Of a stretch of DNA of 64,000 bases, positions 1 through 60,082 are shown in pieces. Location of the stretch: NCBI GenBank assembly GCA_018902385.1, contig JABSSW010000033.1:124001-188000 (forward strand), written 5' to 3'. Below the pieces are notes generated by a model. It was not told where the DNA came from. It worked only from the letters and a program-made list of their open reading frames with translations, and did no database searches. Origin of the DNA: Physcia stellaris. Its lineage: Eukaryota > Ascomycota > Lecanoromycetes > Caliciales > Physciaceae. The position numbers were made by a program, and so were the translations under genes. Positions within the stretch are counted from its first letter, which is position 1, and every line of letters starts with the position of its first letter.

Positions 1-218
1 AAAAAAATAATCGAAATATTTTTCAAAACGTTGTCGAACAATTTGAATACGCATGATCAAATCGAGTATGTTATTGATTTGCAATCAAGCAAAAAATCGC
101 GTTTTGAATTTATATACAATATGTCACACGACGAGCTTATTGTTATACGCAATTATCTCGAGAACGCGTTGACGAAAAATGAATTCGTTTTTTCAACGCA
201 TTTGCGAAAACATCTGTA

Positions 219-575
219 TTGTTTGTCAAGAAATCAAATGACAATTTGCGTTTATGTGTGAATTATCGAAAACTCAATGAAATCACGATCAAAAACAATT
301 ATTCATTGTCGTTGTTGTTTGAAACGTTAAAACGTTTCGCGAATGTTAAACATTTTATCAAAATAAACATCCGAAATGCGTATCATAAAATTCGTATTCG
401 TCAAAAGATGAATGAAAAATTGCTTTTCGTACTCGCTATGAACAATACGAATATCAAATTATGTTTTTCGATTTTGCTAACGCTTTTGTTACTTTTCAAT
501 TTTATGTTAATGAAACATTAAAATCATACATTGACGTTTTTGCGTGATGTATCTGAATGATGTGCTGATTTATTT
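219..575 (+). pseudogene. reverse transcriptase fragment (Ty3/gypsy)
   Basis: The translation contains the finger/palm signature LCVNYRKLNEITIKN followed by KINIRNAYHKIRI, matching the LCVDYRxLN..TKLDLRxAYHxIRI block of Ty3 reverse transcriptases. Downstream in a shifted frame the catalytic box reads YLNDVLIYF at 550-576, where active enzymes have YLDD. The catalytic aspartate has become asparagine through GAT to AAT, a GG to GA change. In-frame stops make this a dead gene. Confidence 0.8.
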
Positions 576-785
576 TGAAAATGAACAACAGCATTGAAAA
601 CATGTTCGTTTGATGTTTAAAACGTTGTTACGTTATCGCTTGTATGTCAAGTTGAAAAATGCGAATTCAACAAAAAAGAAATCAATTTTTTAAATTTCGT
701 TGTTGAGCGCAATGATATTCAAATAAAACGTTCGCGTATAGACGCAATCGTCGATTGATTTGAATTCGAAAATGCGAAAAATATC

Positions 786-992
786 ATGATTTTTTTAGAT
801 TTTGTTGAATTTTATAAGCGTTTTGTTAAAAGATTTTCGCAAATCGTAACATCATTTACGAATTTGACGCGTGATGCGAAAAAGAAAAAATCGCTTTTCA
901 TTTGTTATGAAAAAAAAAAAAAAATTAAAATTGCGTTCAACGAATTCAAAATTAAATTCACGATTGTTTTTATTTTTACGCATTATGATTGA
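786..992 (+). pseudogene. RT connection / RNase H start fragment
   Basis: The stretch LDFVEFYKRFVKRFSQI matches the FLGFxNFYRRFIxxFS segment that follows the reverse transcriptase in Ty3 elements, and the downstream Phe/Lys-rich part aligns with the start of RNase H. It sits in the expected place after the RT fragment. Stops on both sides show decay. Confidence 0.65.
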
Positions 993-1859
993 AAAGCGAA
1001 ACTACGCATGAAAATTGATGTTTTTGATCGCGAAACAGATAATATGTTCAATCAAAAAAACAAAAACGATCAATGACATCTCATTGCGTTTTTCAGTTAC
1101 AAATTCAAGAAAGCAAAAATTAATTGAAATACGCATGACAAAAAACTGTATGCGATAATGTTTGATTTCAAAAATTGAAAACATTATTTGCAAAATAACA
1201 AGCATTTCATTCGCGTTATTTTTGATCACAACAATTTTCGATATTTTATGACAATTAAAAAGCTCAATGCGAAACAGATTCGCTGAATTGAAAAATTAAT
1301 TGCGTTTGATTTCAATATAAAATATCGCAAAAACAAATTGAACTTTGCGAACGCGTCGTCGAAAAAATCTGATTTTATGAAATCGAACGATAACGACAAG
1401 AACAACGATAAATTCTTGTTTATTTTGCGAAACAAATTTCGCAATCAAAATTATCAGTTTGATTTGCAAAGCGATTAACGTGTGTTTGTTTCAATCAAAT
1501 TTGCAACATCGACAACGCGATTGCGTAACATTGTTACGACAAATATTCGAAATATTGTTTCGAATGAGAAAGTTCTCGATAGATGTGCTTGCAGAATTTT
1601 AAATATTGTCGCATTTCGATTCTTAGTTCATCAAATTATGAAATCGAAAAATTTTATTTGAAGTTGCGAAAATCAATGATTGCGTGATTATTCAAATTAC
1701 AACAAAAAACGCTTTTGTTGTTGAGAAACAATGACGTCAAAAATACGCAAACAAGCAAAACGAATTTTCGAAATGAAATGTTGAAAAAAATGAATTGTTT
1801 CGTCGTGATTTCGCAATTTATGTGTTTGAAAATTTCGCTACAAAACAAGAAATTTTTCG

Positions 1860-2655
1860 TATGAATCATGACGATTCAGATGTTGAACATTTTGCGCGAA
1901 CAAAAATCGAAAATGTTGTGCGACGTAAGTATTTTGATTTGACATGATTAAGAAAATAACAAATTATGTACGTATTTGTTCAGATTGTCAACGAATGCGA
2001 ATTCATCGACATAAATTTTATGACGATATGATAGCAATCTCATCAAATGAAAAGCAATCATTTGATACAATTATCGTTAATTTCATTACAAATATGTTTT
2101 TTTGCTAGAGATTTTTATACGAGAAAGACTAGCGATTCAATATTAATATTGATAAACAAATTGACGAAATACGCAACGTACATAACAATCACAAAAACGT
2201 TAAACGCGATAAATTTTGCGAATTTGCTATGACGAAAATTCGTATGTCGTCATGAAATGATGCGTAGCATTATTTCGAATCGGAAATTTCTTTTCACAAG
2301 CAATTTCTGATCTACTTTGTGCTGGAATTTGAAAGCGAAACGTAAATTTAGCACTGTCTTTCATTCACAAACAGATGAACAGACAGAAAAACAAAATGTT
2401 GTGTTCGAACATTATTTGCGAATGTATTGTAATTTCAAGCAAAATAATTGATCAGAATTGCTATTTATGACACAATTTGTTTACAATAATAGCAAACATT
2501 CAAACATTGATCAAATTTTTCAAAAATTTTTGTCTGAATACGTTGCGACATTAAACGACGATTCTGTGAACAATTTTCAAAAAGAAAAGACAGCATTTGC
2601 AACAAACAAAACAAAAACGTTGCGAAACAATCGAACGCATTTAATGAAATTGTGA
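1860..2655 (+). pseudogene. integrase core fragment (Ty3/gypsy)
   Basis: Two in-phase pieces carry integrase signatures. At 2047-2232 SDSILILINKLTKYATYI corresponds to the DSILVIVDRLTKMAHYIP strand of Ty3 integrases, with the first catalytic D changed to N. At 2355-2655 HSQTDEQTEKQN and MTQFVYNNSKHSNI match the HPQTDGQTER and AEFAYNNSxHxS segments. Frameshifts and stops separate the pieces. Confidence 0.75.
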
Positions 2656-2966
2656 AAAACGATTTTCGAACAACAAATCAAATATTATAATGAAAATCAT
2701 ATAATGAAAAATTTTGAATTTGAAAAAAAATGTTGTTGCGTGAAATCAATATACGTACATTGCGTCTCAAAAAAAAAATTGATCATAAACAACTAAATTT
2801 CTTTGAAATTGTCAAGAAAATAAATACGCAAATTTACGAGCTTGATTTGTTTAAACAATATGAGTTCATACATTTTGTGTTTCATGTCTCTTTATTCGAA
2901 TTTTGATATAATCGTGACGACGCAAATTCAAAATCGCAATCAATATTAATAAAAAACGAGAAAAAG

Positions 2967-3117
2967 TGAGAAATATCGCAAATGTTAGACAAACGCATTA
3001 GAAAAAATCAATCTGAATATTTTATTGCATGAATAAATTCATCGCCATATGAGAACTCGTGAAAGTCAATGAAACATCTCGAGAATACGAAAAACGCAAT
3101 TGTCAAGTTCGAAAATG
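2967..3117 (+). pseudogene. integrase-linked chromodomain with all three tryptophans turned to stops
   Basis: Immediately after the integrase, the frame starting at 2967 reads like the WEVExIL..YLVKWxGY..TWEPxxNLxNA chromodomain fold. It contains EISQMLDKRIRKNQSEYFIA and later SMKHLENTKNAIVKFE. Each of the three conserved tryptophans is a TGA stop. Chromodomains of this kind steer integration to modified histones in chromoviruses. This copy is non-functional. Confidence 0.7.
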
Positions 3118-4890
3118 CGCGCGAATTACGCAAATCTGAAAAAATTGCGAAGCGTCGAAAAACAAACAAATTCAAAACGAAGTCGAGCGAAAAACTTTCA
3201 ACAAAAGAACAAACACGTCAATTTTTAAAATTGAAAAAACGTGAACGATTCAAAAGCAAAAATAACAATAATTGCGACGCAAAAACACAAACAATAAAAT
3301 GATATTGCGAATTGTTTTTGATTACATGCGCAGTTTGCATACATTTCGATGTTATAAAAATATATTGAAATTCGTAAATTTCAACAAGCAAATCACAAAA
3401 CAACACGTCACAACAAAAACAAACAAACATCAACATTTCAACGCAAACAAGCACAAAAACAAACAAAATCAACATCAAATATGCGATTTAATGAATTCAA
3501 AAAAACACGAAAATGTACGTCAACGCGTCGATAAATTTATCAATCAAAATTCAAATCACAACAATCAAATCGATTTCGATTGCGTCATGTTAATTGTCGT
3601 CGCGTTTAATTGAAACGTTGCTTATCATGTATTACGCGATTTTGTTGCGCGAAAACAAACGCAAAAACAAACGCGACAACAAACGAATTTGTTTGCGACG
3701 CAAACGAAACGAAATCGAAAACAAACGCAAACGAATCGAAAACGAAAAAAATCGAAAAAAAAACAACGCGAAGCGAATCAAAATCAGAATCAAAATCAAC
3801 AAACGAAACAAAAAAATCTTGATTTGCTTTCGAACAAGCGCAAAAGCAAACGAAAACGAAAAAACAACGAGCAAAAAGTCGTTTTTGTGACAGATTTTGA
3901 TGTAATTGTTGCAACAATTTTGCGAATCGCGATAAAAACAAAAAACAACGAATTTTTTCGATTCGTTTTTGCGTCATGTTAATCACGTTACGCACAAGAT
4001 TTGCATGCTATTATTTTTTCAAAATTTCAAAATTGTTTTCAATTTGTTTTGAGCGCTATTTTGAGCAGCAAAAACACGAACAATAACTTGAAATTGCGAA
4101 AAAGTCATGTTTTTCTCGCAATAATGCGAATTCTTGTTACAAAATTGACATTTGACGCGCTTGTTATTTCTCGAAATTTCGCAAACGTGTTTAAAATTTG
4201 TGCGAAATTTTCGAACGCAACGTTGACATCAAAAATAAATTGATTTTGTTATACATTAACATTGATTCGAAACAATTATGCGTGTTTGTTTATTAAATTT
4301 TGACAACATGCGTTCGCGATTGTCACGCGAAAAAAACATTTGAATTGTCGTGTTTTCATTCAATTGTTCAAATGAAAAAAATTTATTAATTTAATATTGA
4401 ATCAACAACGTCAACATCATAAACAATACATTTACAGCAAAAATTGCAAAAAGCGATTTGCGAAATGTAAAAAACAAAAAAAACGACGTCATGATTTATT
4501 GCGTTGTTAACACACGTATTACATTGTCGACAATTGAAAATTCAATTTCGTCGTCATTGAAACATCATTGCGACAGCATTATCATTTGCAAAAGCGATGT
4601 GATAACTGTACAGACAACGATATATCATGTTAACATCATTGTCGCAATAATTGTTGTTATCGCAGAGACAAAAAAGATCAAATGAAATATTTACTATGTT
4701 ATGAAATAAAGATGTTAAAAAAGAAAATTCAAAAAATGAATTGAAAAATTGAAATAAACATTCATCAACACACGACGCGATTCATTTCGATTCGATTTCA
4801 CAACACGAACGCGATATTTGAAATTGCATTATATTGTTATTATTATTTCTATTTATTGAATTACAATGTTTTAAGATTACACGTCGAAAA
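3118..4890 (+). other. A-rich, low-complexity 3' region of the first retroelement
   Basis: About 1.7 kb between the chromodomain and the presumed 3' LTR, built largely of AAC, ACG and GAA-type words (for example around 3640-3850). Open frames exist on both strands here because stop codons are rare in this composition. Their products are Lys/Asn-rich or Phe/Ser-rich and look like no protein family, so I do not call them genes. The length is large for an untranslated 3' region and may hide another decayed insertion. Confidence 0.45.
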
Positions 4891-5182
4891 CACAAAATTA
4901 TTTACAAAACAACGTTGTTGCGATACATTTCTGATATATTATAAAGACATTGATAATTGACGCGAAAAATCGATCATTCAGAAAAGAAACAATTGTAATG
5001 AGACGAAATCGATCAAGCGAACGCTAAAACGCTGTGAATTTAGCTGTCGCATTTCGTGCTTATATACTCGAAATTTCACGAATTTCTTTTTGTTTTTTAG
5101 CAATTAGTTTTACTATGTGTCTAACATTTATCATAGCAATTAATATTATTATTCGCACATTCTAGTCACGCAGTGTCTTACA
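4891..5182 (+). repeat. probable 3' LTR of the first retroelement (start uncertain)
   Basis: This stretch is visibly less AT-skewed than its surroundings. It has a TATA-like TTATATA near 5060 and ends in TTACA, the same LTR terminus seen in elements A and B further right. The 5' partner is outside the window, so the left edge and identity are inferred. Confidence 0.35.
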
Positions 5183-5749
5183 TTTTTACACAAAAACATC
5201 GAAATTATAATACGTTTAAACGACAACGAAAAAAACAACAATTGAATTAATACGAAATGAAACGTATCGTCAATGAAATCAACACATGCATTACGAAAAA
5301 AAATATACAAATCAAAAATATTCGAGCGATCAAAAAATTTTTCAACAATGATTTCGCGATACACGCGATAAACGCAAAAAAAACAAAAAAATTGCGAAAC
5401 AACAATGCATGAACGACGATATTCGATAAAAAAACGAAAACGATCGTTTCGATTTATGCGATCATGATTAACGAAATAAAAATTAAAAAATTCGATTTAA
5501 CAACGACAAAAAATAAAAAAACGACGATACGTAAAAAAAAAAAAAAACGAAAACGTGAAAAAATTAAAAAAAATGAAAATTTTGTACGTGTTTTGAAAAA
5601 ACAAATTCACGACAATATAACAATATCATTTTTTGATTATTGAAATCATTATTTCAAAAATGAATAACAATATGTTGAACAACAACATCATGATCGAAAA
5701 AAAACTAAAAATTTGTTCAATGTTCAACAAAACATGCAAAATTAATCAA

Positions 5750-5915
5750 TGTTATAAATGTCATTATCATGAACACAATACAATTTAATGCACAAAAAAA
5801 AACGATGCGATTATTGCGCAAATGCGTATGTTACGAAAAAAAAAAAAATATACAAAAATTTACAAAATCAAATGTTACGTATGTGAAAAAAAACACATAA
5901 TTCATGAAAAAAAAA
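5750..5915 (+). pseudogene. LINE ORF1 zinc-knuckle cluster
   Basis: At 5750-5791 the frame gives C-Y-K-C-(x4)-H-(x4)-C, the CX2CX4HX4C retroviral-type knuckle, preceded by Gln as in Tad1 ORF1. A second knuckle, RCDYCANAYVTKK, begins near 5803 in a different frame, implying an indel in the A run between them. A third, KCYVCEKKHIIHE, follows near 5870. Three tandem knuckles are typical of Tad1-clade ORF1. One stop lies inside the first knuckle. Confidence 0.7.
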
Positions 5916-6445
5916 ATGCAAAAAAAAAAAAAAAAATCGAAAAAATCATGTATTAACGTTCGATTACGTCAACGAAATTCGAAATTCAAAAACAACAATA
6001 CATCGTCGTCAATAAAATGATAACGATTTCGAAATCGATAAATACAATTCACGAAAATTCAAAAACGACAATCGTTACGAAAAAATTCAATCAATTAAAA
6101 AAATTACAACGACGAGACATCGTGAAATCACAAAAAAAAATTTTTATTTAAACGAAATCAACAAACGCAAAAAAACGAACGCGTATAAATTTTATGTAAA
6201 AATGATTTTATCGATCGAAACAATGATATTATCGCAATTATTTTCAAATTCACAAAAATTTCGAAACAAAAAAAACAATAAATCGACGTTATCGATCAAA
6301 AACAAAAAAACATCAACAATCAAAAAAAAATACGAGAAATTTGAAAAAAAAAAAATTTTTCGTTCACGATCATCAAAACATTTTTATTTAACGTCACGAA
6401 TCGAAATACGAAATTCAAAACAATGAAAAAATGTTAAAAAACGAC

Positions 6446-6589
6446 ATATTATCGATATTACAATACAACGTCAACAATTCGAAAATTCAAATCATGATAT
6501 CGTTATTCGAAACAAAAAACATAAAAAAATTCGATATATTGATTATACAAAAATTATAAAAAAATTCATTTCAATTCACGACAAATAAT
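6446..6589 (+). pseudogene. LINE endonuclease, N-terminal half (interrupted)
   Basis: In one frame the sequence reads ILSILQYNVNNSKIQIMISL, then a stretch ending FDILIIQKL, a stop for Trp, and KNSFQFTTNN. This is the ILQYNVxxSR..DILAIQEPWxN opening of Tad1 apurinic/apyrimidinic-type endonucleases. It continues in the same frame at 12019 after removal of the inserted LTR element. Confidence 0.8.
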
Positions 6590-6900
6590 TGTAAAACATT
6601 CAAAATTTAAATCAACAAAACAATGCGAATCGAATGTCAATAAAATCAAATATTTTACATGATCGCATGCAAAGCAAACATCGAATCAAAAAAAATGCTG
6701 TTTGCATTTTTTTGTATCACAACAAGCAATAAATTTAATGATTTGCAATTGAAACACGTTGTTCGATTCATTCGTATCATTGAACGTACGAAACGATTAT
6801 ATAGTAAAAAGTTTGCAAGACAATTAGTTTTGCAATTATTAATTTAGACATAATATCGTTTTCGGCTATACATTTCTGATGTCACATTTCGTATTTTACA
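6590..6900 (+). repeat. 5' LTR of element A
   Basis: TG..CA-bounded, 311 bp. It carries a TATA-like ATTATATAG near 6798 and the conserved block TTCTGATGTCACATTTCGTA before its end. Most of its differences from the 3' LTR are C/T or G/A in CpT/ApG context. Confidence 0.85.
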
Positions 6901-9159
6901 TTTTAATAATTACAATAATCATTCGATTAATATCATTCGTGTATAGTTAACAATCAAGCAATTCAGTGATTGAACGTGTTGACACGTTTTCGTCGTCCGA
7001 TTTGAACGAGACATCGATTCTACGAAAATCTGAACGAAAAACAAATTGAGAAAAAAAATTGTATATTATACAATTAAATGTCGCAATCATGATTGATTGT
7101 ATAATTTTGTTATCATTATATCGTTCGATCTAGAAAGCGAATCAGAACTTAAAAACTGAAAATTTCGAAACAGAATCGTCGAAACAAACTATTTCGATGC
7201 AATAAAAGTTTACAACAAGTGATTTCAAAACATTCGATCTCGTTGATGTTTTCAGCGACAAACGTCAATTATTTCAGTTTTCGATTATTCATAACAATAA
7301 CGACGAATCAAAAACATCAAAACAATTGAAAAAGTTTGCGCAACGTGTCGAAATTTTGATACAAAATGAATTTTTACATTCAAATTATATTTGAAAAAAC
7401 AATATCAAAACAACGATTTCGATCGTCTCGTTTTCAATTCAAAACATCAAAAATCAAAATATCATAACATTTTCAAAAACAAATCGCATGTTGATTTCAA
7501 CAAAAACATACGATCGAGAAATCGCACGAATGCGATATAATTCAAAATCGAAAAAACGATAAAAAATTCAAATTCGATAAAGTTAACAGACATTCAATCA
7601 AAATCAATAAAAATTGTGAATGTGACAAATTTGAACAACATTTGATACGATTGCAAAAATTTCGTATTGTTTCAATAAAAATTGATTTGTAAAAATTGAT
7701 TTCGAAAAACGAACAACAATGATCGATTTAATCATTTTCAATCAAATTCGCATAATGAATGTTTTCATAAATTATAAACAATAACAACAACGAATTTTTC
7801 ACGACGAGTTTTGTTGACATTATCATCAAACATCGTCGCAAAAAAGTCATGCATGATTAATTGCAATAAAATTCATGATATGAATAAAAGTCATCGAAAT
7901 TTTTGAATTCAAAAGCAAAAATCAATTCGTAAAATAATGTTTTCGTTGAATTCAAAACAATTTTATTTCAAATTTATAATCACGATGCGATGATTTTAAA
8001 CAACAATCAATTCAAATCATTGACGTTTGATTCGTACGAATATCATTTTCGAACAAAAGCAATCGCAAACGTTTTTTGAATAAAAAATTTCAAAAATTGA
8101 TTTGAATTAATCGATTTCGTAAAATCGCATTGATGCAACGAAATCAAAATGAATATATCGATTTCAACATTTTGCAATGCAAAATTTTTTCATCATAAAT
8201 CGTATCGAGCACATCGAGTCGAAAAAATCAATCGATTTTATTATTTATAACAAAAACAAAATTTTCGACACATTCGTACGAATCATTTGTGATATGAACA
8301 TGATTTCGCATGAAACGCATTTTGAACAATGAATTCATGTATTTTCAATTTTATCGAAAATCGAAAACAAAAATATTCATTCGCAAAAAGTTTGCGAAAT
8401 CATCGAATCATGTATTTGACGAATTTTGAATTTGACAAACATATAATTTGTTCAATACATATGCAATAAATTTGACGAACATGCGATATGTTTGACGAAT
8501 TCGCAATGAATCACAAAACATGCAATAAATTCGCAATCGAACAAGAAATCATTTCATAATTTTATTTATTTTTTATCGAAAGATGATTAACAATATTGAA
8601 AATTTATTTGAACGAATTTTTGAGAAGCAATTTTATCGAATCTGAAACAAATGAAAAAATATGCTGTATAAGCATCGAAAATGATTTTTACAAATTTTTC
8701 AATTTTGTTATTTTCGTCGAAACGTCAAATTTTATCATTTGATCAAGAAACGTTCGACGAAAATTCACAAACTATACAGATTTGACATTTATATAATCAT
8801 AAAGTGCGACATTCAACAGACTTCGCACAAAACAAAAATAAATTTCTGACGAAACGTTTAAATCTATACGTTCTCGTTTCTTTTCAAAATGTGCAAACGT
8901 AAAAACAAAAAATTTCGTAATTTTTTCGACGAATGTGCAAATGCAACAACATAAATTGTTATACAAACAACGAATTACATCAAAAAATGTGTTCGAAATT
9001 CTTGAAAATCTACAAACACAAAGAAACTTCAATGAGTTTGATTTTTGATTTAACGTTAAAGAACAAGCAAAATTTCACACGAAAAATGAAACAGATGTCA
9101 AAATAAACAAAATTCAAACGTCGACAAAACGCGTTTTTGAAAACATTTATTTTGCAATA

Positions 9160-9420
9160 ATTCGATTCGATTAAATCGTTCGTGTGAAAATTGACGCTCA
9201 AAACAAAACAATAAATTTTATTTTTCGTCAAGATGATTTTTGCAACACAACGAATTCACAAAAAGTTTTGATCATAATATTATCGAAATTTCAATCATTT
9301 CGTTTCGACAACAAGAATTTTGCAATGCGAACGATTTATTCAAACGATTCGATCAAAAAATCATTAAAAAAAATAAATGCGAAAATTACAATTATAATGA
9401 TTTTTCACATTAAGTCATTT
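9160..9420 (+). pseudogene. RNase H fragment of element A
   Basis: The frame from about 9160 encodes a degraded FDSxKxxRVKIDAxNKAI..FRQDD block, the RVETDASDxAIGAVLSQ strand of Ty3 RNase H. The same block is clearer in element B near 55860. Frameshifted and non-functional. Confidence 0.5.
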
Positions 9421-11478
9421 CGATGCGATCAAGCAAACATACAGAAATCAAATCGTTTGATGTGATACGCATCAAAAAACAAATAATTCGTGTTCGAATG
9501 AGTTTCAAGTCAACGAAGAGTTGCGAATTCGAATTTTTGACAACGAAAAAAATTTCGTGTTCGAATGATTTCGTTCTTTTTGAAAATTACGTTTTTCGAG
9601 AAATTTTCAATAAAAAAAAACTTCGTGTTCGAATGATTTCGTTTTTGTTTTCGATTGTGCATCAAACGTGATCGTCGATGAATATAATAATATTGATAAT
9701 GCGCAAATTTTCGAATCTGATTCATGCGATGATTGAACAGAAACATATTCACGAATTTGATGATAAACAATGACGACGATTTTCGATATTTGAATTCGTT
9801 TATTGTCAAACAATGACGACGATAAAATCACTGACACGTTCGTCGAGTTGATTCGTTCATTGTCGCAAAATTTCGTGTGCAATTGTGAAACAGAAATTAG
9901 TTATTTTTGATATGTCACGTTCGCATTGACAAAGCAAACTAAAACAAAGTACAATGACACGAAAACTGCTTGTACGTCTCGTCGAATTCTAAAAAGAACG
10001 TTCGTGCAAAACAATTTTTTGATCGAACATTTGATGTGAAACGCATTTTGAAATCAATACGAAAATATTGTAAATCGAATCAAATTAACAAGATCGTTCA
10101 TCGAACATCGGCGTGATTTTTAACATGCAAGCACGATTTAGAATTTGAACATGTGAAAAAAGTCAGAAATTGCGAGATATAAATCGTTTGTCAAGACATT
10201 TCGTCAAGATTTATGTATATTTTTCATGTAATGCAACAAGTCGAAAGCGAAATACAAATCAATTGTCAAAACATTTCGTTCGAATTGAAACATACGAAAA
10301 AAATCAAACGACGAAACATGCGTCAACGACATCTCGTCATATTTTAGCATGCAAACAGATCAGAAATTGCGAAATATGAATCATTCAAACATTTCGACAA
10401 AATTTAAACATGCGAGCATGAATCAGAAATTTGCAACAAGCATTTCGTCACAAATTACACGATAAATTATCGTTTTCGTTCAACGAAATTGAAATGAATT
10501 AACTTTACGTGAATTTCATAACAAATTATCAAAAAATAAAACATGAATTGTGTATTCACAATGTGATGATCGCAAAAAATTTCTTAAACGCTATTAGATT
10601 TCATTGCATGACGACAATTTGTTTGAATTTTTCAAAAATAAATTAAGTTTACAAATCAACGAAAAGTCACGATGTTTTTAAACATGCATAGTTTAAAACT
10701 CGAATCAATAACGTTTATACGTTGACGTTTCATCTTGCTTCAAAAAAAATTTAAGTTAAAAGAAAAAAAAATTTCGTTAAAATTTTGCTAGAATTCACGT
10801 ATCAATTTACAAGACATCGACATTGACAATCACTGACAAGTCGTATTGCGAATCACGATCAAGTCATACAGCGAAAACGTATTTGAAAATCAATAACACG
10901 ACAGATGCAGTTTTCTGATGATACAATTGACGAAACGATCATATCAATATTAATATCATGACGCGTTCAACGCTTTGTAAATGCAATTTTTTCAATTGAT
11001 ATAATTGATTCGAACAATCATGTTTTTTTCGACATTCATGTCATCAATTTTTGTGTTGTTTACTGTCAAAGAATTTACGACGCATGAAAAATTAAATCGT
11101 GTCAAAAACATTTTCAAAAGTTGTTGTTCGATTTAATTGAACGTTGAATATTGCGATGAAATGAAAATAAAAAATCGAAAAAATTTTCGAAATCAAACAT
11201 ATTCATTGAAATCGAAATTATTTCATCAATCGAAAAAAATTATTGAATATTTTTCGCGCGAGCAATTCATCGATTTCAACACGTATACGAGAATAAAAAA
11301 ATAAAAAATATTAGAAATTCGAATTCGATTTTTTTGTCATTCAATTAACTGTCAATCATCAAATCGAAAATCAAAAATAACAAACAATGAAATCATCAAA
11401 TCATGTTTTTTTTGAGTCATTCACGAAGATGATTTTCAGATTTTTAACGCAGATTGATTAGAAATCGAAAAGAACGAG

Positions 11479-11613
11479 ATTCGATGCGAAGATCACGATC
11501 ACAGTGCTTTTTCAAATCAGCATATTCGATGCGAAAGTCACGATCACAATGTTTTTTCAAGTCAACATATTCGATGCGAAGATCGCGATGACAACGATTT
11601 TTCAAATTTTCAA
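11479..11613 (+). repeat. 45-bp minisatellite, three copies, upstream of 3' LTR of element A
   Basis: Copies start at 11479, 11524 and 11569, each beginning ATTCGATGCGAA and ending in a run of T then CAA. Element B carries the same motif at the equivalent place (58651 and 58696) with two copies, so copy number differs within the family. Confidence 0.8.
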
Positions 11614-11709
11614 AATGAAGCATACAGACACATAAATCTAAAAATATTCGCTGCAAAGCATATGAAAAAAAATCATTTCAAGAAATTTCGATGTTAAAAA
11701 GAAAACGTA

Positions 11710-12018
11710 TGTAAAACATTCAGAATTCAAATCAACAAAAAATGCGAATCGAATTTCGATAAAATCAAATATTTTACATGATCGCATGCAAAACAAACAT
11801 CGAATCAAAAAAATGCTGTTTGTTTTTCTTTGTATCACAACAAGCAATAAATCTAGTGATTTGCAATTGAAACACGTTGTTCGACTCATTCGTATCATTA
11901 AACGTACGAAACGATTATATAGTAAAAAATTTGCAAAACAATTAATTTTGCAATTATTAGTTTAGACATAATATCGTTTTCGATTAAACATTTCTGATGT
12001 CACATTTCGTATCTTACA
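11710..12018 (+). repeat. 3' LTR of element A
   Basis: 309 bp, TG..CA-bounded, direct repeat of 6590-6900 with about 20 differences. LINE endonuclease coding sequence resumes immediately after it. Confidence 0.85.
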
Positions 12019-12269
12019 ATAACAAATTTTCGCAATAATTCGAATTATTGTATATGTTCGATGCAATCACGAAAATGTGTATATTCGTTAACAAAAAAAT
12101 AACGAAAATCGAATATTTTTACACGTTTTACAACAAAAATTTGATTTCGTTAAAAATGCAAATCGCGAACGACAAAATTATTAACATTCACAACATGTAT
12201 AATTTATGCAAAAACAACGAAAATTTCAACGCGATATTCAATTTCAAAAACGCGATGCAAAAAAATTAA
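12019..12269 (+). pseudogene. LINE endonuclease, C-terminal half
   Basis: The frame joins the part ending at 6589 and reads NKFSQ, stop, FELLYMFDAITKMCIFVNKK, then NDKIINIHNMYNLCKNNENF. These match the Tad1 endonuclease segments RVCFFVNKR and GRxINIHNVYNPxP. The reading frame is continuous across the insertion once element A and one target repeat are removed. Confidence 0.8.
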
Positions 12270-14678
12270 CGAAAAACACGTCGTCGTAAAAAATTTTAAT
12301 TTGTATTATTTCAATTGAAAAAAATCACATGTGAAAACAAACGCGAACGTATACGAATTCATAATCACGATAAAAAAATATAAATTGAAAAAAATCACAT
12401 CGATCGAATTAATTACATGAAATAAACACACGAACGAAAACACAATCGATTTCACATACGCAATATCGTTGTTTCGAAACAACATAATCGAAATTGATAT
12501 CGACGAAAATATGAACAATCATTCGAATTATCGTTCAATTAAAACGATATTGAATTTGCGTACGAAAACGATCACGTCGAAAATTACAAAAATTTGAACG
12601 AAAACAAATATCGATATATTACGCGAAAAATTGCAAACGAAAATTACGAATAACGAAATATTCATTTTTAACAACGACACGTACAACAATCAAACAAAAA
12701 AATCGACGATCAAATCAAAAAATTGATAAAAATTATTCAAACAATTATCGAAACAATTATTTCGATCAACAAATCGAATATTTACGCGAAATCAAAATTT
12801 ATCGAAAAATGCAAACAAATATCGAAAACGATCAAATCGATCAAAAAAAATATCAAAACAACGACAAAATCGAAAATTTGTGAAAATCGTACAAAAAAAT
12901 GAAAAATCGTTTAAATCACGTAATTTTTAAAATCATAAAAACACAATACAAAAAAAAAATCGAAAAAAAAATGTGATACATCAAACAACATGTAAAAAAC
13001 ATGCAAATGAACAAAAAATAAAATTTCGAAAAAAATTTGTTTATCGACATTACACGATCATTCATTTATGTTGTCAAAAATTGATTTAATCAAAAAAACA
13101 TTCATATTATTGAAAAAAAAAATTTTCGTCGTTTACGATTGTTTTAATCGACATACAAAAATCACATACAATCAAAATTTGAAATTGAAAAACATACAAT
13201 TTCACGAAATGACGAAAATTATAATCAAACAAATTTCGAACAAAATTTCAAACGACAACGACATAATCAATAAAAATGAAAATAAATAAATAACATTATC
13301 GCATTATATTTGCAACGCATATACAACGTTAATTTGAACGAAAATTATTGTTCGAAATATTTTCGAAAATCGATTACGATCGCATTACGTAAATCAAACA
13401 AAAATATTTATTCGATAACGATTTCGTACAAATCAATAATTTTATTCAATATTATAAACAAACAAGTTTGTTCGTGAATTTTTTTTAAAAAAAAATTTGC
13501 GAAATGATTTTCAGAATTAAAATCAAATCTGATAAAATTGCGAAAATTTTCGCATCGAAATCAAAATTTCAATGATTTCGAATTCGTTTTGCGATTTCAT
13601 CGATATCGCATTTTAATAACATTTGCATTCAATAAATAAAATATACAATCGAAAATTCATTTTGAAATTTGAAGTGAATTTTATTCAAATAATCAAAAAT
13701 ATCGAAAATTCATCGTTGTCGCATTGAGTTGTGATGAAAATCGCATCATTGCGTTGCAAATATTGCGAAAAATTGAATCGACACGAATTTGACAACGACG
13801 CAATTTTTCAAAATTCAAAATTATTGCGATAATGAATCGATTTTCGTTATTTTTGATGCATTGAAATGCATTCGTTTTGTTTTACAATTATGATTACATA
13901 GATGAAAATCATATATGATTGTTGATTGAAATGCAAAACGCGAAATCATTGTACAAATCAAAAAAAATTGAACGAAATCATTTCGCAAACATTTCAACTT
14001 GCGATTTGACACAGATTTGACAACGACGAAATTTTCGAAATTTCATAACTATTGCGATTATGAGTCGATTTTTGTCATTTTTACAACGTTAAAATGTTTT
14101 CATTCTGTTTTACAATTTTGATCAAACAAATGAAAATAATATTTGATTGTTGATTGATGTGCAAAATGTGAAATAATTGCACGTTGTTGAAACGTTTTGA
14201 AATGATTTTGACGTATGTTTCGATTGAAAACAAAAATTAAATATTGATTGAATTTATCGACTTTAAGAAATACGAAAACAAAATTGATCAAAATTTTTCT
14301 CGATCGATCATTCGCGTTAAGCGAATATATTGAACATTTTTTTATAAATTGTGTTTTATTTATGAAAATATTGATCAAACGAATCAATTTTTGACGAAAA
14401 AACACGATTTGTTGTCACGCACACATTTCGAAATCAGAAAAATCGTGTTTACGAAACACGCGTTACATTACATAATGAAACGAATACATTCGATATGAAA
14501 CAAAAAATTGATAATCGTGATCATGTTTTTCGACGTAATAAACGTTTTCGACAATATAACGCGTTTAAAATTGTTACATAATTTCAAAACAAAACGTTTC
14601 AACGAAAAATTGATACGATGTATTGATTTTTTTGTTCAATAAAATGACGATTTTGAAAACGAACAAATATAATATCGA

Positions 14679-14905
14679 ATGATTCGAAATATTTATAAAT
14701 ATTTTTCAAAATTCATTTATGTTATCGATTTTTTTTTTTTTTACAACGCATTTTTATTGAAAATTTTGAAAAAAAAAAACATTTTAACGAATGAATTCGT
14801 CGACGATGTAAAAATGTTAACGAAAAATCATATTTTCGAAAAATGCAACGATATTATAATCAAAACACACGAAAAAATTTGCGTATCGTGAACATTGAAA
14901 CACGA
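14679..14905 (+). pseudogene. LINE reverse transcriptase fragment
   Basis: Contains FFFYNAFLLKILKKKNI and EFVDDVKMLTKNHIFEKCND, matching LFLFYNADLLE and the catalytic GFVDDVNIL box of Tad1 reverse transcriptases. The two catalytic aspartates (FVDD) survive, but the surrounding frame is broken. Confidence 0.8.
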
Positions 14906-15629
14906 AATAAAATTTGCATTTTCAAAATATCAATTCATTTATTTCGATCGAAAAAAAAAACAAACGATATCGAATCGATACGATTTTTTGAATTCAATCA
15001 AAAAATCAAAACAAACAAAAAAATGAAATATTTGAACGTCATAATGAACGAAAAATTCAATTGAAAAACACAAATCAATCAAAACAAAACGAAAACATTA
15101 AAATTTATAAAAACATTACGCAATTTCGACGACATTACATAAAATATTAAATTTTCGAAAATAAAACAAATGATGCAAACGATTTTTATTTCACAATTTA
15201 CATACGCATGTTCGATGTGATACACGTCGACAAAAAAAAAATCACAACAAAAAAATAATCAAAAAATTAACGAATGTTCAATATCAAATCGAAAAAATCA
15301 TAACGAAAACATACAAAATCATTTCGAAAAAAACGTTTAACATCGAAATCAATTCAATGTTTATGTATTTACGTTTGAACAAATTCATCAATACGTTCGT
15401 AATGAAATTGATAACAAATTCAACATACGACACGATTATACGCGATCGTTTTATCAAAAAATCGAAAAACGTCAATTTATTGAAAAAATTAATAAATAAA
15501 TTCGAAAAAAAAAAACGAATATCAAAACACACGATATGAAAAAAAAATTTATTTTTGTCGTATCGTCATGATTTAACATCGTCAATTGCACGTATCATGA
15601 AAAACAAAAAAAAAATCGAAAAATATCAC

Positions 15630-15896
15630 AAAATACAATTAACAACGAATTCGATCAATTACATATACACAAATAAAAACGATATTAACGACAAAATGAA
15701 TGTAACAACGATATTTTCAAAAACGAATTTTATTACAACGAAAACGTATTTGAAATTTATTACGTCATACACGATTTATTTTGCTGAGTTATATGACATC
15801 GTTTTAGCAATGAGCATGCAATTGCATTCGTTTTTAAAATTTGCAAAAAAATCGAAATTCGTCATATGCATCGACAATCAGACAGCAATTTAAACG
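15630..15896 (+). pseudogene. LINE RNase H fragment
   Basis: YIYTNKNDINDKMNVTTIF resembles the xYTDGSxxxGKVGAA strand. Then TIYFAELYDIVLAMSM and KSKFVICIDNQTAI match VYAAELQGIxLAL and VxIFTDNQAAI of LINE-encoded RNase H. Frames shift nearby. Confidence 0.75.
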
Positions 15897-16217
15897 ATAC
15901 ACGATTCAAAAATCAATTTCGATCAATATTTGATGAAATGAATAATTTGATTGATCAACGAATTGCGAAACAAATATATAAAAATAAAATTACATTGAAT
16001 TTCGATTCATATCGATATCGAAAACAACGAATAAATAGACGTTGCGATCAAACAAATCACGAATTGAAAATTGAAAAAACGAAAAAAAAAATGAATATCG
16101 ATCACAAAACACAACAAACAAACGTACAAATATTGAAAAACGTCGTCAAAATCGTGATAAATAAATCGATAAAATAACAATAATGTCAAAAATGAAAAAT
16201 TTGCAATAAAAAAAAAT

Positions 16218-16454
16218 TTGTACAAAATTACATCGAAAACGAATACGACAATTATGCGATTACACGAAAAATTCATTAAAAAATTCAATGTTATAACAAT
16301 ACAATTTCGCACGATCAAAATAAAATTAAAAACGTTTTTATACAACAAAAAACAAATCGAAAATTTCATGTGTTTATGCATATGTAACAAACAAACAATC
16401 AAACACGTGTTTTTCGAATGCAAAAAATTGAAAAAATTTCGAAAAAATTTATGA
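16218..16454 (+). pseudogene. LINE C-terminal RNase H tail and zinc knuckle
   Basis: NTTIMRLHEKFIKKFNV corresponds to the SxLMRLRxGKIGL tail, and CLCICNKQTIKHVFFEC matches the CxCGxxxETVKHVLLEC knuckle that ends many fungal LINE polyproteins. Defines the 3' coding end. Confidence 0.75.
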
Positions 16455-16821
16455 ATTGACGAAATTAAAAAAACGAAAAAAAAAAAAATATTGATAAACG
16501 TATTGATCAATTCGATCAATTTGACAAAAACGACAAAATTTATCGAAAAATTCGAATTCATTGATTATTTACGAATTTCAATTACGAACGACGAAAAATA
16601 AAAATTGCAAAAAAAATGCATTGAATTGAAAATTTTCGTACAAAATGAAAATGAAAAAAAATCATGAAAATAAAAATGTTTGAAATGATTTGTTCGAATA
16701 AAAAAACAAAACATCAAAAACAAATAATTTTGTATAAAGTCAAAAATTTTTTAGAAAATGATTGATTCGATTGTTTTTAGTCGCATAACGAATTTTTAAG
16801 ATCGGTTTCGAGTGCTTAATG

Positions 16822-16846
16822 AATCAATCAATCAATCAATCAATCA
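16822..16846 (+). repeat. (AATC)6 microsatellite at the AT/GC boundary
   Basis: Six perfect AATC units just right of the LINE 3' end, exactly where base composition switches to balanced GC. It may be the simple-repeat tail of the LINE or an independent microsatellite. Confidence 0.9.
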
Positions 16847-51620: not shown

Positions 51621-51913
51621 CAGGTGGATAGTCTGGATAGTCTGAGTTTGAACGGAGGTCTGCAGTACAAAACCTACTTGCCTGAGATTCAAATTGCAAA
51701 TCGCTGGAGATTACTAGGAGTCTTCACAGTAGCTTTTTGCGACCTTGTAGACTTCGTTAGCCCATCGACCCATTAGATCCCGTAGAGCTCTTGAAGTGAC
51801 TGCGATCGTGAGAGTCCCGTTCAACAGAAATTAGTTGATTTCGAAAATCGATTCATTTCGAAAAGGTTCAAATCTTCAAGATCTGCATTGATTCGAAGAA
51901 AGCACTTTCAATC

Positions 51914-52081
51914 TGTTGAAATATTTGGTAGAAACCAGATCAAAACCAGATCAATTGTAATGTGTAAGAATGACGATTCTATGTACAGAAAACCTGTTTA
52001 TGTAGAGCTAAACGTATCACGTGACTCGACTTAATACATTTTCGTATAGCAACATCAACTCGTGAATCGTATATTGCAACA
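51914..52081. repeat. left LTR of the outer element
   Basis: 168 bp. Differs from the right LTR at 15 positions: 14 are transitions and all 14 fit C to T before a pyrimidine, or G to A after a purine. One is a transversion. Confidence 0.88.
52016..52023. promoter_or_regulatory. ATCACGTG palindromic E-box in left LTR
   Basis: ATCACGTGA matches the RTCACRTG consensus of Cbf1/centromere element I type basic helix-loop-helix sites. It is unchanged in both LTRs (60185-60192) although other positions have mutated. Function is inferred. Confidence 0.35.
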
Positions 52082-52254
52082 CCTTCTTTCGAATCGGGTT
52101 CGAGCTGTAAATATACAAAAAGACAGTAATTAGATCTCATTAAAATCTTCCGTCTGGCAAAACCCTGTGAAAAAAAACCGAAACGTAAAAAAAAGAATGT
52201 AATAGTCAGAAATGAAAAACAAGACGCCGTAAACAACTGTGACAAAATCAAATA

Positions 52255-52647: not shown

Positions 52648-52955
52648 TGTAAAGCACTCAGAGTTCAAATCAGTAGAACACTGCGAGCCGAATTTCGATA
52701 AAATTATATCAAGCAATTCGATCATCGAAGTTCGATAAATCATGAAAACGATCAATTTGATCACGTCAGCATCAAACTTTCGATTGAATTCAACAAGTTC
52801 ATATTTTCGAATAGATTTCGAAATGTGTGTACGATTGAGCAAATTGATTGATTATATAAACAAAAATCTGTAAAATAGTTAGTTTTGCAGTTATTAGTTT
52901 AGTCATACAATCGTTTCTGCTATACATTTTGATGTCACATTTTTTGAGTTTTACA
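52648..52955 (+). repeat. 5' LTR of element B
   Basis: 308 bp with a TATA-like ATTATATAAAC near 52850 and the TGATGTCACATT block near its end. Of about 26 transitions separating it from the 3' LTR, about 24 lie in CpT/CpC or ApG/GpG context. Confidence 0.9.
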
Positions 52956-53004
52956 TTTTAATAATTATCATAATTCATAAATTAGCATCATTCGTGTATA
53001 CAAC

Positions 53005-53816
53005 ATGTCTACACTTTTCACTAATATGAATATTTTCACGAATTTTGAAAATGAATTCATTTTGAATTCATCAAAGTCAAATGTCATCATGAAAAAATAT
53101 CGAGCATACATTCAACAACAGCGCTCGAATGAAAACATTACAAAATGCATTTACATTTACATTCTCAATCGCTCAAATTTTTGTCATTAGAAAAAAATCG
53201 TTCTATATCAAGATAATGAACGACAAATCAAAATTATTTTCTGAAGACAACTATAAAGAATGAACTCAATACGTTTGAGAAATGAAAAATCAATTCGACA
53301 TGAATCAAATGAACGATTACGTCAAGAATTTTGACAAAATCAAACTCTTTTTTGTTGTCATTTTTCTAAAGAAAAAATTTACTGCACAGCTACTATGAAG
53401 TGTCAAAGTCAAAAACAATTCAAAGAAAAACTATATTTGAAAAAAGTATGTCGACTTTCTCAAAAAAAAACATCAAAGAAATTTTCATCAAAAAGAAGAA
53501 TAATTTCGAAAAATATAAAAATTACAAACAGAAAATCAATCAATCAATAAGAAATTACGATGCACATCGCATCGTTTTGTTTTCGAATTTACATTCAATT
53601 ATGAAGTCTTCATCAGCAATAAAGTTACAAAATTTCGTATTAAATCTAATTCAGAATAATCAGAACTTTCTGATCGAACAAAAAATTGAAAACGATAAAA
53701 ACGTGATTTTGAAACGTTTCAAACAACGAAAAGATTTTCAACGCAAGAAACAACGCAACGTCAATCAGAATAAATCTGATGACGACTTTAACAAACGCAA
53801 AAAAAGACGAGAATAA
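53005..53816 (+). pseudogene. gag remnant of element B
   Basis: Broken frames after the 5' LTR. The longest (53400-53816) is Lys/Asn-rich with YKNYKQKINQSIRNYDAHR and LQNFVLNLIQNNQNF, compatible with a Ty3 gag capsid region by position and spacing. No zinc knuckle is readable. Confidence 0.5.
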
Positions 53817-54097
53817 TTTCGATGAAAACGGAAAAAACAATCGTCGATCTAACAAAAATCGACGAAAAAATCGAAAAAAACGATAAGAAATTCAAATCTG
53901 ACAATTCTAATCGCGAAACAATCAAATTCAAAAACTATGACGCTGAATCAAAATTGAATACAAAAATATCGTGAATAACAATAAACGATCGATTGCGATA
54001 AATCGAAATGCAATATTAAAAAATGTAAAAATATCAAATCGAATATCGTTTTTTTCGAGAAAATCTTTTCAAATTCTAAATCAAAAAAATAATCGAT

Positions 54098-54520
54098 TTG
54101 ATAATTTTCAATCAAGCTGATACGAAAAAGAATTCAATAACAGATGATCGCATCGATTCAAATTCGAACGAATTCAATACGTTCACTATCGAAATCAAAA
54201 ACGCAAAACGTCGTTTTAGAAAATTTCGCACGATCAAATGCAAAAAAACAAAAATCAAAATAAATAGAACATTTGACGAGAAAAGTAAACTGAAGTTCGA
54301 AACCGTTATGAATTCAAAAGCAAAAATCAGTTTAATAGATCAAAAGCTTGCTAAACGACTCGAATTAAAATCATTCAACGTATCGAGTTGCGAAACAATG
54401 ATCATAAAAAACAATTCACTCAAAAATTATGAAATCTACTTTGTACAATTCGAAATACAGAACGAAAACGACGTGAATCGTTTTTTTAACGATAACTTTT
54501 TAGAAACGAATCTAAATTGA
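54098..54520 (+). pseudogene. aspartic protease region of element B
   Basis: Contains ETVMNSKAKISLIDQKLAKR, corresponding to the ALIDSGAxxNFIDxxLAxR active-site loop of Ty3 proteases with the DSGA altered to NSKA. The downstream residues follow the family pattern. Non-functional. Confidence 0.6.
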
Positions 54521-54859
54521 GACATAATCTTAAATCTATTCTGAATACAATTATTCGAAATCGACGTGAATTGAAATATCGACAAAATCAAATCATGATC
54601 GATGACTGTAAAATCACTTCTCTTCATCACGAACCGTATCGAAAAATCGAATCAGAAAAACTGATCAACGCAATTCTCAATGAAAAAAACATGTTTTCGT
54701 CATGTTCGTACAAATGATTTCTGACGAGATAAAGTATTTGAATGACGTACACATCGAACGACGATCACAAATCGACTTTGCTTTCGCGAAAATGAAAAAA
54801 AAGATATCAAAAACTTTCTATTTGAAATTTTGAAAAAATTCGCTGACATGACAAATGAG

Positions 54860-55510
54860 AACAAAACATACGAATTATTTGATCATGAATTCGACGATCA
54901 CGCAATAGATTTAAAGTCAGACAAGAAATCATCGTATGAATTCATTTACGCATTGTTCGAAAACGAACTCAAAATCTTGCGAGCATATCTGAATAAACAT
55001 TTGAAAAACGAATTTATTCGATTTTTCATTTTTTTTGCGAGCGTTTCGATTCTGTTCGTTAAAAAAAAAACGAAATTTTACGATTGTGCGTAAATTACAA
55101 AAATCTTAATTTTTTAACGATCAAGAATAGATATTTTCTATCACTAATCGATGAAAGTCTGAATCGCCTAAACAAAATTCGCAAATATACAAATCTTGAC
55201 ATGATAACGATCTACAATCGACTTCGTATTAAAAAAAAAAAACGAATGAAAAACAACGTTCAGAACACGATACGAACATTTTGAATATATCGTTATGTTT
55301 TTCGATCTCATTAATGTATTTGCAACGTTTCAGAACTTCGTCAACAAGATTTTGATCGAACGATTAAACTTGTCGATCATTGTCTATTTGAACGATATAG
55401 TTATTTATTTCAAAAACGAAACACAACACGTCGAGAACGTCAAATGAATATTAAGTCGTTTAAGAAAGCACAAGCTCTTTCTTAACATGAAAAAATGTAA
55501 ATTTTTTAAA
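54860..55510 (+). pseudogene. reverse transcriptase of element B
   Basis: DHEFDDHAIDLKSDKKSSYE, LKILRAYLNKHLKNEFIR and VSILFVKKK are the HDHxIDLxPGxxPxY..ELxxLRxYLxExLxKGFIRxS..ILFVKKKDG opening. After a frameshift come CVNYKNLNFLTIKN and a catalytic box reading YLNDIVIYF at 55385-55411, with D to N at the first catalytic Asp, as in the retroelement at position 550. Confidence 0.8.
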
Positions 55511-55839
55511 GATAATATCGAATTTCTGAGTTTTATCGTTTCATCGAAAAAAGATGCAAATGCAACAAAACAAAATCGAAACTATACAAAATTGATTTGC
55601 ATCTAGAAACGTGTTCGAAATTTTCGAATTTCTCGACTTGTGCAATTTCTATAGACGATTTATCAAAAATTTCAATAAATTGACATTACTCTTGATTTTC
55701 ATGCTAAAAGAATCAGCAGAGTTTCAAAAAAAAAACTAAAAAAACGAAATCGAAATAGAAGTCACAGTAAGAAACGATTATCGAACGAGTTTTTGACTTT
55801 CGAAATCTTCGAATCATTCAAACGATTACGCAAAACGTT

Positions 55840-56010
55840 TATGAAAATTTCTGTTTTGCAACATTTCGATTCGACTAAACTCATTCGTGTGAAAATCGAC
55901 GTCTCGAATAAAGCAATAAAAAAAATATTCTGTCAATCAGACGACAAAAATCATTGACATTCGATAATTTATTTTTCAAAAAAAATGATATTCGCGAAAT
56001 GTAATTATGA
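55840..56010 (+). pseudogene. RNase H fragment of element B
   Basis: HFDSTKLIRVKIDVSNKAIK, FCQSDDKNH, a stop for Trp, then FSKKMIF match the RVETDASDxAIGxVLSQ..WHPVAFxSRKLSPAE strand of Ty3 RNase H. Broken frame. Confidence 0.7.
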
Positions 56011-57069
56011 AGTTCACGACAAAAGTTTCTGATCATAATTTTCGCATTCAAACATTGACGTCATTACTTGAAAAAAACGAGACATCAAATTCTCGTTCTG
56101 ACGAATCATCGAAATCTCAATCGCTTCACGATTACAACGAAATTATCATCTCGACAAGTACGATGAGCAAAAAGCTATCACGTTACAATTTTGTCATCGA
56201 TTATCGTTTCGACAACAAGAATTTTGCGAACGACTTGTCAAAACGATCTGATCACATGACGATTACAAAAAATGAAATTGAAAACAATCGTCAAATTCTG
56301 ACGCGTTTGCGACAGTCTTTACAAACAAACTCGAACGGATTTTCGATTTATGTGAGCGAAATTAGAGTTACGATATTCGAATTCAATGAAAGTGAAATAC
56401 TCGCGTGCGAATTTTTTGAAAAAGTGAAAAAAACAATTTTTCGAATGATTTTTTCTCGTTCTAAATACATCAGACGTGATTATCAACGAGTGAAAAACAT
56501 TAGTACTGAATAATGCAACGATTTTCGAGTCGATCGATGAAATGATTGCGCGAAAACATATTCATGAACATGATGCAACATACGACGATAACATCACTGA
56601 CAATTTTGTCGAGTTGATTCGTTCATTGCTAAAAAAAAAATCCTTGTGCGATTCAAGTGAGACAGAAATTAGCTACTTCTGAAAAGTCACATTCGTCTTG
56701 AATAGACGAGAAAGAAATATTATGACATGAAAACTGTTTGTACGTTTCATCGAGTTTGAGAAAAAATGTCATAAAGTCAAATCACGACAATTTTTCGCAA
56801 ATCATTTCGATGTAAAACGCATCTTAAAATTAATACGAAAAAAATATTATTGATCGAATCAAGATAAAATCGCTGACGTCGAACACGACTCAAACATGCG
56901 TGCACAAGTAAAAAAATATTGCGAAACATGTGCAATTTGCAAAAAAAGCAAAACATTTCGTCACAAGTCATATGAAAATTATCATTTTTTTTTATATCGA
57001 AATTCAAATGAATTGACATTACAATGAATTTCGTGACAAATCTATTTGAAAACAAAACATGAAACGAGA

Positions 57070-57761: not shown

Positions 57762-57927
57762 AAATCAAGCATATCAATTCGAAATATTCAAGCGTTGACG
57801 AATTCATGACGTCTTTCACGTCTCGTTGCTGAAAAAAGTCAAATCTAAAAAAAGAGAAAAAGCTTCGCTAAAATTCACGTATCAGTCGAATATCGAAAAT
57901 GACGAAAAACTCACGAACGAGAAATTC

Positions 57928-58090
57928 TGAATTGAAGTCATTTTGAACAACAAAATCTATAAAAAAGATCAAATTTCGAATAAATCATACAGTGAGTCAG
58001 AATTCTATTATCTGATTCAATGAGAAAATTACGAAAAACGTATTTGAAAATCAGTTGCAATGATTAAACATCTAAAAATATGTTTCGCGA
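57928..58090 (+). pseudogene. chromodomain of element B, tryptophans turned to stops
   Basis: Reading from 57928, a TGA, IEVILNNKIYKKDQ, FYYLIQ, TGA, ENYEKRI, TGA, KSVAMIKHLKI. The three TGA codons (57928, 58021 and 58045) occupy the three conserved chromodomain tryptophans, the same outcome as at 2967-3117. Confidence 0.55.
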
Positions 58091-58740: not shown

Positions 58741-58840
58741 AAAAAGAAACATATTTACACAAGTTTAACGAATCTTTATTGCGAAACATGTCGAAAAATG
58801 TTGATTATTTCAAAAACTTCGATGTTAAAAAGAAGACGCA

Positions 58841-60010: not shown

Positions 60011-60082
60011 GTGCGAATAATATAATGATTAATAGAGCGTCGCATGACTTATATAACGAGCGAATAGTTCGAGCTCATAATC

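Follow-up and report, generated by a model that had tools for sequence, protein, structure and literature searches.

Repeated DNA in the lichen-forming fungus Physcia stellaris (Caliciales) is dense with C-to-T mutations at cytosines followed by a pyrimidine (CpY), most of all at CpC, and CpA is largely spared. We report an analysis of these mutations in a window of 64,000 nucleotides (the whole stretch of DNA studied here, C33:124001-188000, within an assembly of 43,974,083 bases in 147 contigs), together with other copies and stretches from the same genome. The species was sequenced by Nanopore and Illumina from axenic ascospore cultures, with a published assembly of 46.57 Mb in 184 scaffolds, and the main text of that genome paper does not contain the term 'repeat-induced'. 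On the whole, we consider it likely, with a probability of about 0.75, that the damage comes from a process like repeat-induced point mutation (RIP), aimed at CpY and run by one or other of the two RID-class genes of this genome.

Direction and sequence context of the mutations

The direction of change was read from a gypsy-type family in which two copies are undamaged, L029 (C12:59300-62300) and L030 (C5:1165500-1168500), both with long open frames and with G+C contents of 0.48-0.56. The family search gave 41 matches from 40 scored candidates out of 226, the other copies being 69-81% identical. Eight damaged copies of about 3 kb each were taken across the match list and scored where L029 and L030 agree; as the set includes the sister copies L031 and L032, it does not amount to eight independent samples. 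In these comparisons C has become T at 2485 of 2652 CpC sites (94%) and 1914 of 2620 CpT sites (73%), against 112 of 2655 at CpA (4.2%) and 37 of 2624 at CpG (1.4%), the least mutated context. Even the least damaged copy has the same order (CpC 83%, CpT 45%, CpA 1.8%, CpG 0.3%). The 3' base thus moves the mutated fraction from 0.014 to 0.94, and the effect of the 5' base is small (0.38-0.47). Under a simple hit model the rates differ 1.7-3.3 times between CpC and CpT, 26-58 times between CpT and CpA, and 53-150 times between CpC and CpA. Since C>T and G>A are similar, both strands are affected, with 480-760 such changes per 3-kb copy, and each copy carries only 1-7 transversions and 2-11 reverse transitions, so that the change is almost exclusively from C:G to T:A.

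The initial annotation of this DNA had proposed, from dinucleotide counts, a C-to-T repeat mutator with CpY in place of CpA as target, and the polarised copies bear this out; mutation mainly at CpA, which it had named as the contrary outcome, is not what they show. Its treatment of CpY as one class holds for the preference for a 3' pyrimidine, but not for the order within it, where CpC precedes CpT. Codon usage, base composition and chance were considered as causes of the pattern, and are ruled out by the polarised comparison. Over 3 kb the two undamaged copies are 95% alike; 114 transitions and 35 transversions separate them, and the transitions show a weak bias (CpC 39/413, CpT 33/388, CpA 24/378, CpG 18/384). 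They have escaped the mutator despite dozens of heavily damaged relatives.

Depletion of dinucleotides in the window and across the genome

The features on which the following analysis relies are listed below, with positions counted from the first base of the window.

1-16790, no strand: AT-rich block of mutated repeats, running on leftward beyond the window; up to 16000 it has 0-2 CpC+GpG per kb
6590-6900, + strand: left terminal repeat of element A, 92.9% identity to 11710-12018
11710-12018, + strand: right terminal repeat of element A, pairing with 6590-6900
12400-13462, no strand: multi-copy repeat, most listed copies 91-94% alike; contains 12541-12840
13460-14359, no strand: second repeat family, nested in the 12400-14700 repeat, with its own copy set for query positions 1051-1963
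14358-14700, no strand: the 12400-13462 repeat resumed; contains 14461-14640
16840-51900, no strand: undamaged gene-bearing block with normal CpC and CpT levels, the internal control
52655-52955, + strand: left terminal repeat of element B, 91% identity to 58848-59148
52956-58847, + strand: body of element B, where CpC is down to 0-2 per kb and CpT stands at 20-33 per kb
55223-55537 (C33:179223-179537), + strand: reverse transcriptase remnant (RVT_1) in element B, with 2 in-frame TGA
58848-59148, + strand: right terminal repeat of element B, pairing with 52655-52955

The counts reported earlier for the two most damaged pieces were reproduced exactly. In 12541-12840 the 48 cytosines comprise 26 CpG and 22 CpA, with no CpC, CpT, ApG or GpG, and the same rule holds in 14461-14640, where 24 cytosines comprise 13 CpG and 11 CpA and the four other dinucleotides are again absent. 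Extended to all of 5183-16790, the statement that C survives only before a purine is correct for CpC, with one occurrence (observed/expected 0.00) and two of GpG (0.01), but not for CpT, which is lost only in the most damaged parts and keeps 62 occurrences (0.13), with 144 of ApG (0.24). CpA is intact there as had been noted, being above expectation (919, 1.27), as are TpG (567, 1.37) and CpG (671, 3.40), and TpA lies below it (703, 0.46). A history of CpA-directed RIP followed by another process was also considered, and is ruled out by the low TpA and the retained CpA. In the second damaged block, at about 52.2-60 kb, nearly all CpC is gone and CpT remains at 20-33 per kb, so that the two dinucleotides are lost at different speeds. 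Element B is an earlier stage of the same damage.

For the genome we sampled 464 intervals of 500 bp, taken partly from the window itself and partly from 17 further stretches (L008-L024), mostly contig ends and arbitrary positions. CpC+GpG falls below a quarter of expectation in 214 of 223 intervals with G+C below 0.35 and in 7 of 10 with G+C of 0.35-0.40; CpC depletion is found in 0 of 231 at 0.40 and above. The median of CpA+TpG exceeds expectation in all G+C classes. Thus the depletion of CpY is confirmed as real, strong and genome-wide, and is neither a chance nor a local effect. In four intervals with G+C below 0.35, CpC+GpG stays above half of expectation; two of these lie at borders of damaged blocks and a third at a telomeric contig end with CCCTAA repeats. 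The fourth, at the end of C10 (L019, 501-1000; CpC observed/expected 0.82), has no telomere repeats and is unexplained; its first 200 bases are a word repeated in tandem. Likewise unexplained is the TpA content of 128-142 per kb, roughly double the level in ordinary damaged DNA, in three stretches of G+C 0.14-0.20 which are still without CpC (L014 4001-5000, L017 7001-8000, L019 2001-3000).

Repeats and genes

All three damaged stretches that were searched proved to be multi-copy. The oldest one, 12400-14700, gave 68 matches from 40 scored candidates, with other copies 75-94% alike. Overall, repeats are mutated and the sampled gene-bearing DNA is spared, which is shown as a correlation. Nearly every AT-rich interval sampled is CpY-depleted, and 12400-14700 is itself repetitive. 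At the border of the first block (16790-16840), CpC+GpG rises from 0 to 7 per 50 bp within 100 bp. One match to deoxycytidine monophosphate (dCMP) deaminase with 4 TGA was considered as a damaged duplicate of a host gene and rejected, for it sits in undamaged DNA and its stops are probably introns. In a search with MFS genes for damaged duplicates, 9 of 342 candidates were scored and all are open. As to a mitochondrial AT-rich control, a COX1 match is absent from the assembly.

Strand-confined tracts

The copy L031 contains a run of 44 consecutive + strand CpY sites that are untouched over 295 alignment columns, a length reached in 0 of 1000 shuffles, and on the opposite strand of the same tract 27 of 36 sites are mutated. 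This copy and its sister L032 share 457 mutated sites, 202 on the + strand and 255 on the - strand. Beyond these, L032 has 45 extra + strand sites (40 of them in the bins 0-150 and 1500-1950) against 1 in L031, and the - strand extras are 10 in L032 and 6 in L031. Same-strand autocorrelation exceeds that of shuffles in L031 (692 against a mean of 622, standard deviation 17), and does not do so in L032 or L033. In this one pair of copies, therefore, the mutator is shown to act strand by strand, in tracts of a few hundred bases. The tract does not fit gene conversion from an undamaged copy, in which both strands would be reset.

A second family, stop codons and open frames

A second family was examined through five copies of the 55000-58500 piece (that of the window and the 4 next best of 43 matches), compared without polarisation and after exclusion of 52 sites whose neighbour is mixed or odd. 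Between 87% and 99% of the pairwise differences are C/T and A/G, and the variable C sites amount to 404 of 411 at CpY, 69 of 404 at CpA and 24 of 400 at CpG. The stops in RVT_1 remnants, counted in 149 of the 150 scored matches from 527 candidates, are 249 TGA, 33 TAA and 3 TAG. Such an excess of TGA is expected because TGG to TGA is the sole sense-to-stop change open to a CpY mutator; RIP at CpA would give TAA and TAG stops instead.

Two long frames at L019 3537-9998 (in C10:1-10000), of 923 amino acids with an OrsD domain and of 524 with DEAD/Helicase_C, stay open in DNA that is nearly free of CpC, and their proteins contain only about 1% Pro, Gly and Trp together. Since stops at CpY arise only from Trp codons, Trp-poor frames can remain open though heavily altered.

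Related proteins from other sources

Predicted proteins related to a damaged open reading frame (ORF) were collected from ENA, JGI, NCBI and one other source, with 120 listed of 256 hits. Pro and Gly are wholly missing in 69 of the 120 and make up less than 1% in 101, against 9.8% in the undamaged ORF; as the query itself has neither residue, the proportion is biased, and the existence of such proteins is unaffected by this. The median of His+Gln in those 101 is 6.3%, against 6.6% in the undamaged ORF. The loss of Pro and Gly fits because their codons depend on CpC/GpG, and the retention of His and Gln speaks against RIP at CpA, which would remove them. Many NCBI and JGI rows, with an identity of only 41-45%, probably belong to other fungi. 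Among them, P0299 (64 members; NCBI, JGI) comprises reverse transcriptase relatives with almost no Pro or Gly, which share about 42% identity with the query, and no relative of it at the DNA level was found in viral and genome contigs. Judged by protein composition, the loss of CpC may be wider than Physcia or the Physciaceae.

Candidate methyltransferases

A search of the genome with the PF00145 profile finds three genes. L006 (C3) is DIM-2, matching a solved DIM-2 chain with E 4.6e-188, and L007 (C5:498816-501703) is the RID orthologue, grouping with the long RID-class proteins of other Lecanoromycetes. The third, L005 (C6:790905-792561), belongs to class I (RID/Masc1/DmtA), like which it has the PF00145 domain, the catalytic PCQ and the DNMT fold, and from which it differs in the loop after PCQ. 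In a tree of 49 of 51 chosen rows it forms part of a distinct clade (support 100/100, stem length 0.48), whose position close to Eurotiomycete DmtA and to Pyrenula is less well supported (89/90); apart from Physcia, the sole named member of the clade there is Heterodermia. At three positions of this loop the residues H (36/42), D (40/42) and N (42/42) of other class I proteins, L007 among them, are replaced in the clade by Q (9/9), F (9/9) and K (8/9); the loop reads like AQxxKPxDFEDKQ in L005 and its closest clade members, against the class-typical form like AHTxxGxxDDxN. The AlphaFold model of the Heterodermia orthologue has a mean predicted local distance difference test score (pLDDT) of 84.6, about 70 in the loop, and a predicted template-modelling score (pTM) of 0.86, and matches DNMT1, ZMET2, DIM-2 and the HaeIII and HhaI methylases. 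The earlier suggestion of a diverged RID/DIM-2-type methyltransferase is therefore supported in so far as a RID-class gene with an altered loop is present; it is our candidate for the mutator, and the altered loop may set the preference for the 3' base.

Comparison with known systems

Among known systems the closest is RIP of Neurospora crassa, in which C:G also goes to T:A in repeats, on both strands and with genes spared, and in which RID-class and DIM-2 genes are likewise present; crosses with rid identified RID as the enzyme of RIP there (PMC12543289). The order of contexts, however, is CpA>CpT>CpG>CpC in N. crassa, and in Trichoderma reesei CpA and CpG come about equally first, followed by CpT, with CpC least (PMC5496416). 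Both share with Physcia the C-to-T change in duplicated DNA, but CpC is last in both and first in Physcia (CpC>CpT>>CpA>CpG). Of what characterises RIP, we thus find the purity of transitions on both strands, the confinement to repeats (as a correlation) and two class I genes; the preference for CpA, which is typical but not strictly defining, is lacking (112/2655, against 2485/2652 at CpC).

Mutation at CpT is already in print. In the RIPCAL work change at CpT overshadows that at CpA in the N. crassa Tad1 element, strong CpT change in N. crassa repeats is reported by alignment-based work, and CpT>TpT is dominant in the RIP-capable controls of van Wyk 2021. Amselem 2015 describes CpT as a target alongside CpA in Botrytis, Sclerotinia and Magnaporthe, with a RID-class motif proposed for CpT, and CpT is listed beside CpA in Colletotrichum truncatum and Anisogramma; these five target CpT as Physcia does, but CpA too, and the word 'CpC' is absent from the main text of the three papers concerned. 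Change at CpC has its own precedents, namely the depletion of CpC/GpG in Stagonospora repeats (RIPCAL) and the CpC>TpT double mutations of Monilinia, yet CpA>TpA is the main or classical form in both. The hypermutation of transposons in Microbotryum and other basidiomycetes shares the C-to-T change but targets CpG, the least mutated context in Physcia (37/2624), and methylation induced premeiotically (MIP) in Ascobolus, where methylation occurs without mutation, does not match repeats as massively mutated as these. Heavy RIP is described for another lichen genome, that of Cladonia rangiformis, in a paper whose main text contains neither 'CpA' nor 'CpT'. Our full-text search of open-licence PMC papers found no description of a RIP that is CpC-first and spares CpA, and this combination is what appears to be new.

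According to the kingdom-wide screen of Badet and Croll 2025 (PMC12543289), a preference for CpA is common to RIP-like defences, and Physcia would have one that lacks it. RIP is usually scored by indices built on CpA and TpA, with cut-offs of 0.89 and 1.03. In 5183-16790, TpA/ApT is 0.45 and (CpA+TpG)/(ApC+GpT) is 1.36; both values fall on the side of 'no RIP', so that an interval as heavily mutated as this one would pass for unaffected. If our reading is true, a second specificity of RIP may have been overlooked owing to the make-up of these indices.

Proposed mechanism and alternative explanations

We propose that the AT-rich blocks consist of transposons and further repeats hypermutated by a RIP-like genome defence, changing C to T before a pyrimidine and fastest at CpC, as the copies show. 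Each event would affect one DNA strand, in tracts, and the process would end once the CpY sites are exhausted, leaving C only before purines. The agent is most likely a RID-class (DNMT1-type) cytosine methyltransferase that would be active in the sexual cycle, bind the cytosine and promote its deamination. The first candidate is the divergent paralogue L005, changed at near-invariant loop positions, and the second choice L007; the assignment to L005 in particular is tentative, at somewhat less than even odds. A broader proposal, still short of probable, is that a lineage-specific RID branch of the Physciaceae and relatives, its catalytic loop rebuilt to read a 3' pyrimidine, runs a CpC-first repeat defence in which stops come only from Trp and Pro/Gly codons are stripped, and which is possibly widespread and overlooked. 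The pair of class I paralogues, which share a genome but differ in having the usual or the altered loop, would be a natural experiment on the choice of the 3' base, and the clean spectrum together with the single-strand tract offers quantitative handles (order, rates, tract length).

Several observations weigh against this mechanism. The polarised spectrum comes from one family and includes the sister copies; CpA is incompletely spared, with 4% in the polarised and 69/404 in the unpolarised data; and the existence of undamaged copies 95% alike over 3 kb implies that the process is not constant. Besides, only one of three borders is sharp, the change near 52100 and 60200 being gradual, and a damaged duplicate of a host gene other than a transposon was not found in the candidates checked. 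The significant strand run occurs in one copy, 15 of the 16 copy-strand tests being without one, although this is expected if repeated rounds fill all sites. Finally, the presence of a divergent methyltransferase in the genome is a correlation only.

As for which methyltransferase is at work, it is quite possible, if on the doubtful side, that the CpY mutator is the RID orthologue L007 or DIM-2 (L006) and not L005. RID makes RIP in N. crassa, L007 groups with the long Lecanoromycete RID-class proteins and L006 is a clear DIM-2, but L007 retains the class-typical H, D and N that L005 has lost. The damage might also have accumulated slowly, by CpY-specific methylation of silent repeats and ordinary long-term deamination with no active mutator, and a DIM-2 gene as well as the graded damage among copies would suit this. 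We consider it unlikely, since 480-760 C>T and G>A changes stand beside 1-7 transversions per 3 kb, against 114 transitions and 35 transversions in the undamaged pair, and since the strand-confined tract points to discrete events.

That tract would also suit a single-strand cytidine deaminase acting on an exposed strand, in place of a protein of the methyltransferase family, and the genome has eight PF00383 matches. The known APOBEC/AID enzymes select their sites by 5' neighbours, a choice not seen in Physcia, where the 5' base has little effect, and the one of the eight matches examined, on C64, lies in ordinary undamaged DNA, so that a deaminase appears quite improbable. A sequencing artefact, in which modified C in repeats is miscalled as T in an assembly from Nanopore and Illumina reads, is hardly credible: polishing of repeats is difficult, but the change is near-complete and pure in context, one tract is confined to a strand, and the loss of Pro and Gly recurs in related predicted proteins from other sources. 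The RIP-like CpY mutator thus remains the reading we prefer.

Other features of the window

The first damaged block begins on the left at about C33:121000 (stretch L008). Element B is probably gypsy-type, judging by its terminal repeats and RVT_1 remnant, and so, from its likeness to element B (69-78% match between internal parts), is the damaged element A. The undamaged block 16840-51900 carries HET, Noc2, tRNA synthetase, CTLH and ADH genes, and no RNA family reaches its gathering score in the window. Outside its terminal repeats, element B is flanked by weakly damaged direct repeats (51910-52082 and 60079-60251, 91% alike), which are perhaps the ends of an outer element, and it is adjoined by tandem units of about 99 bp at 59694-59964.

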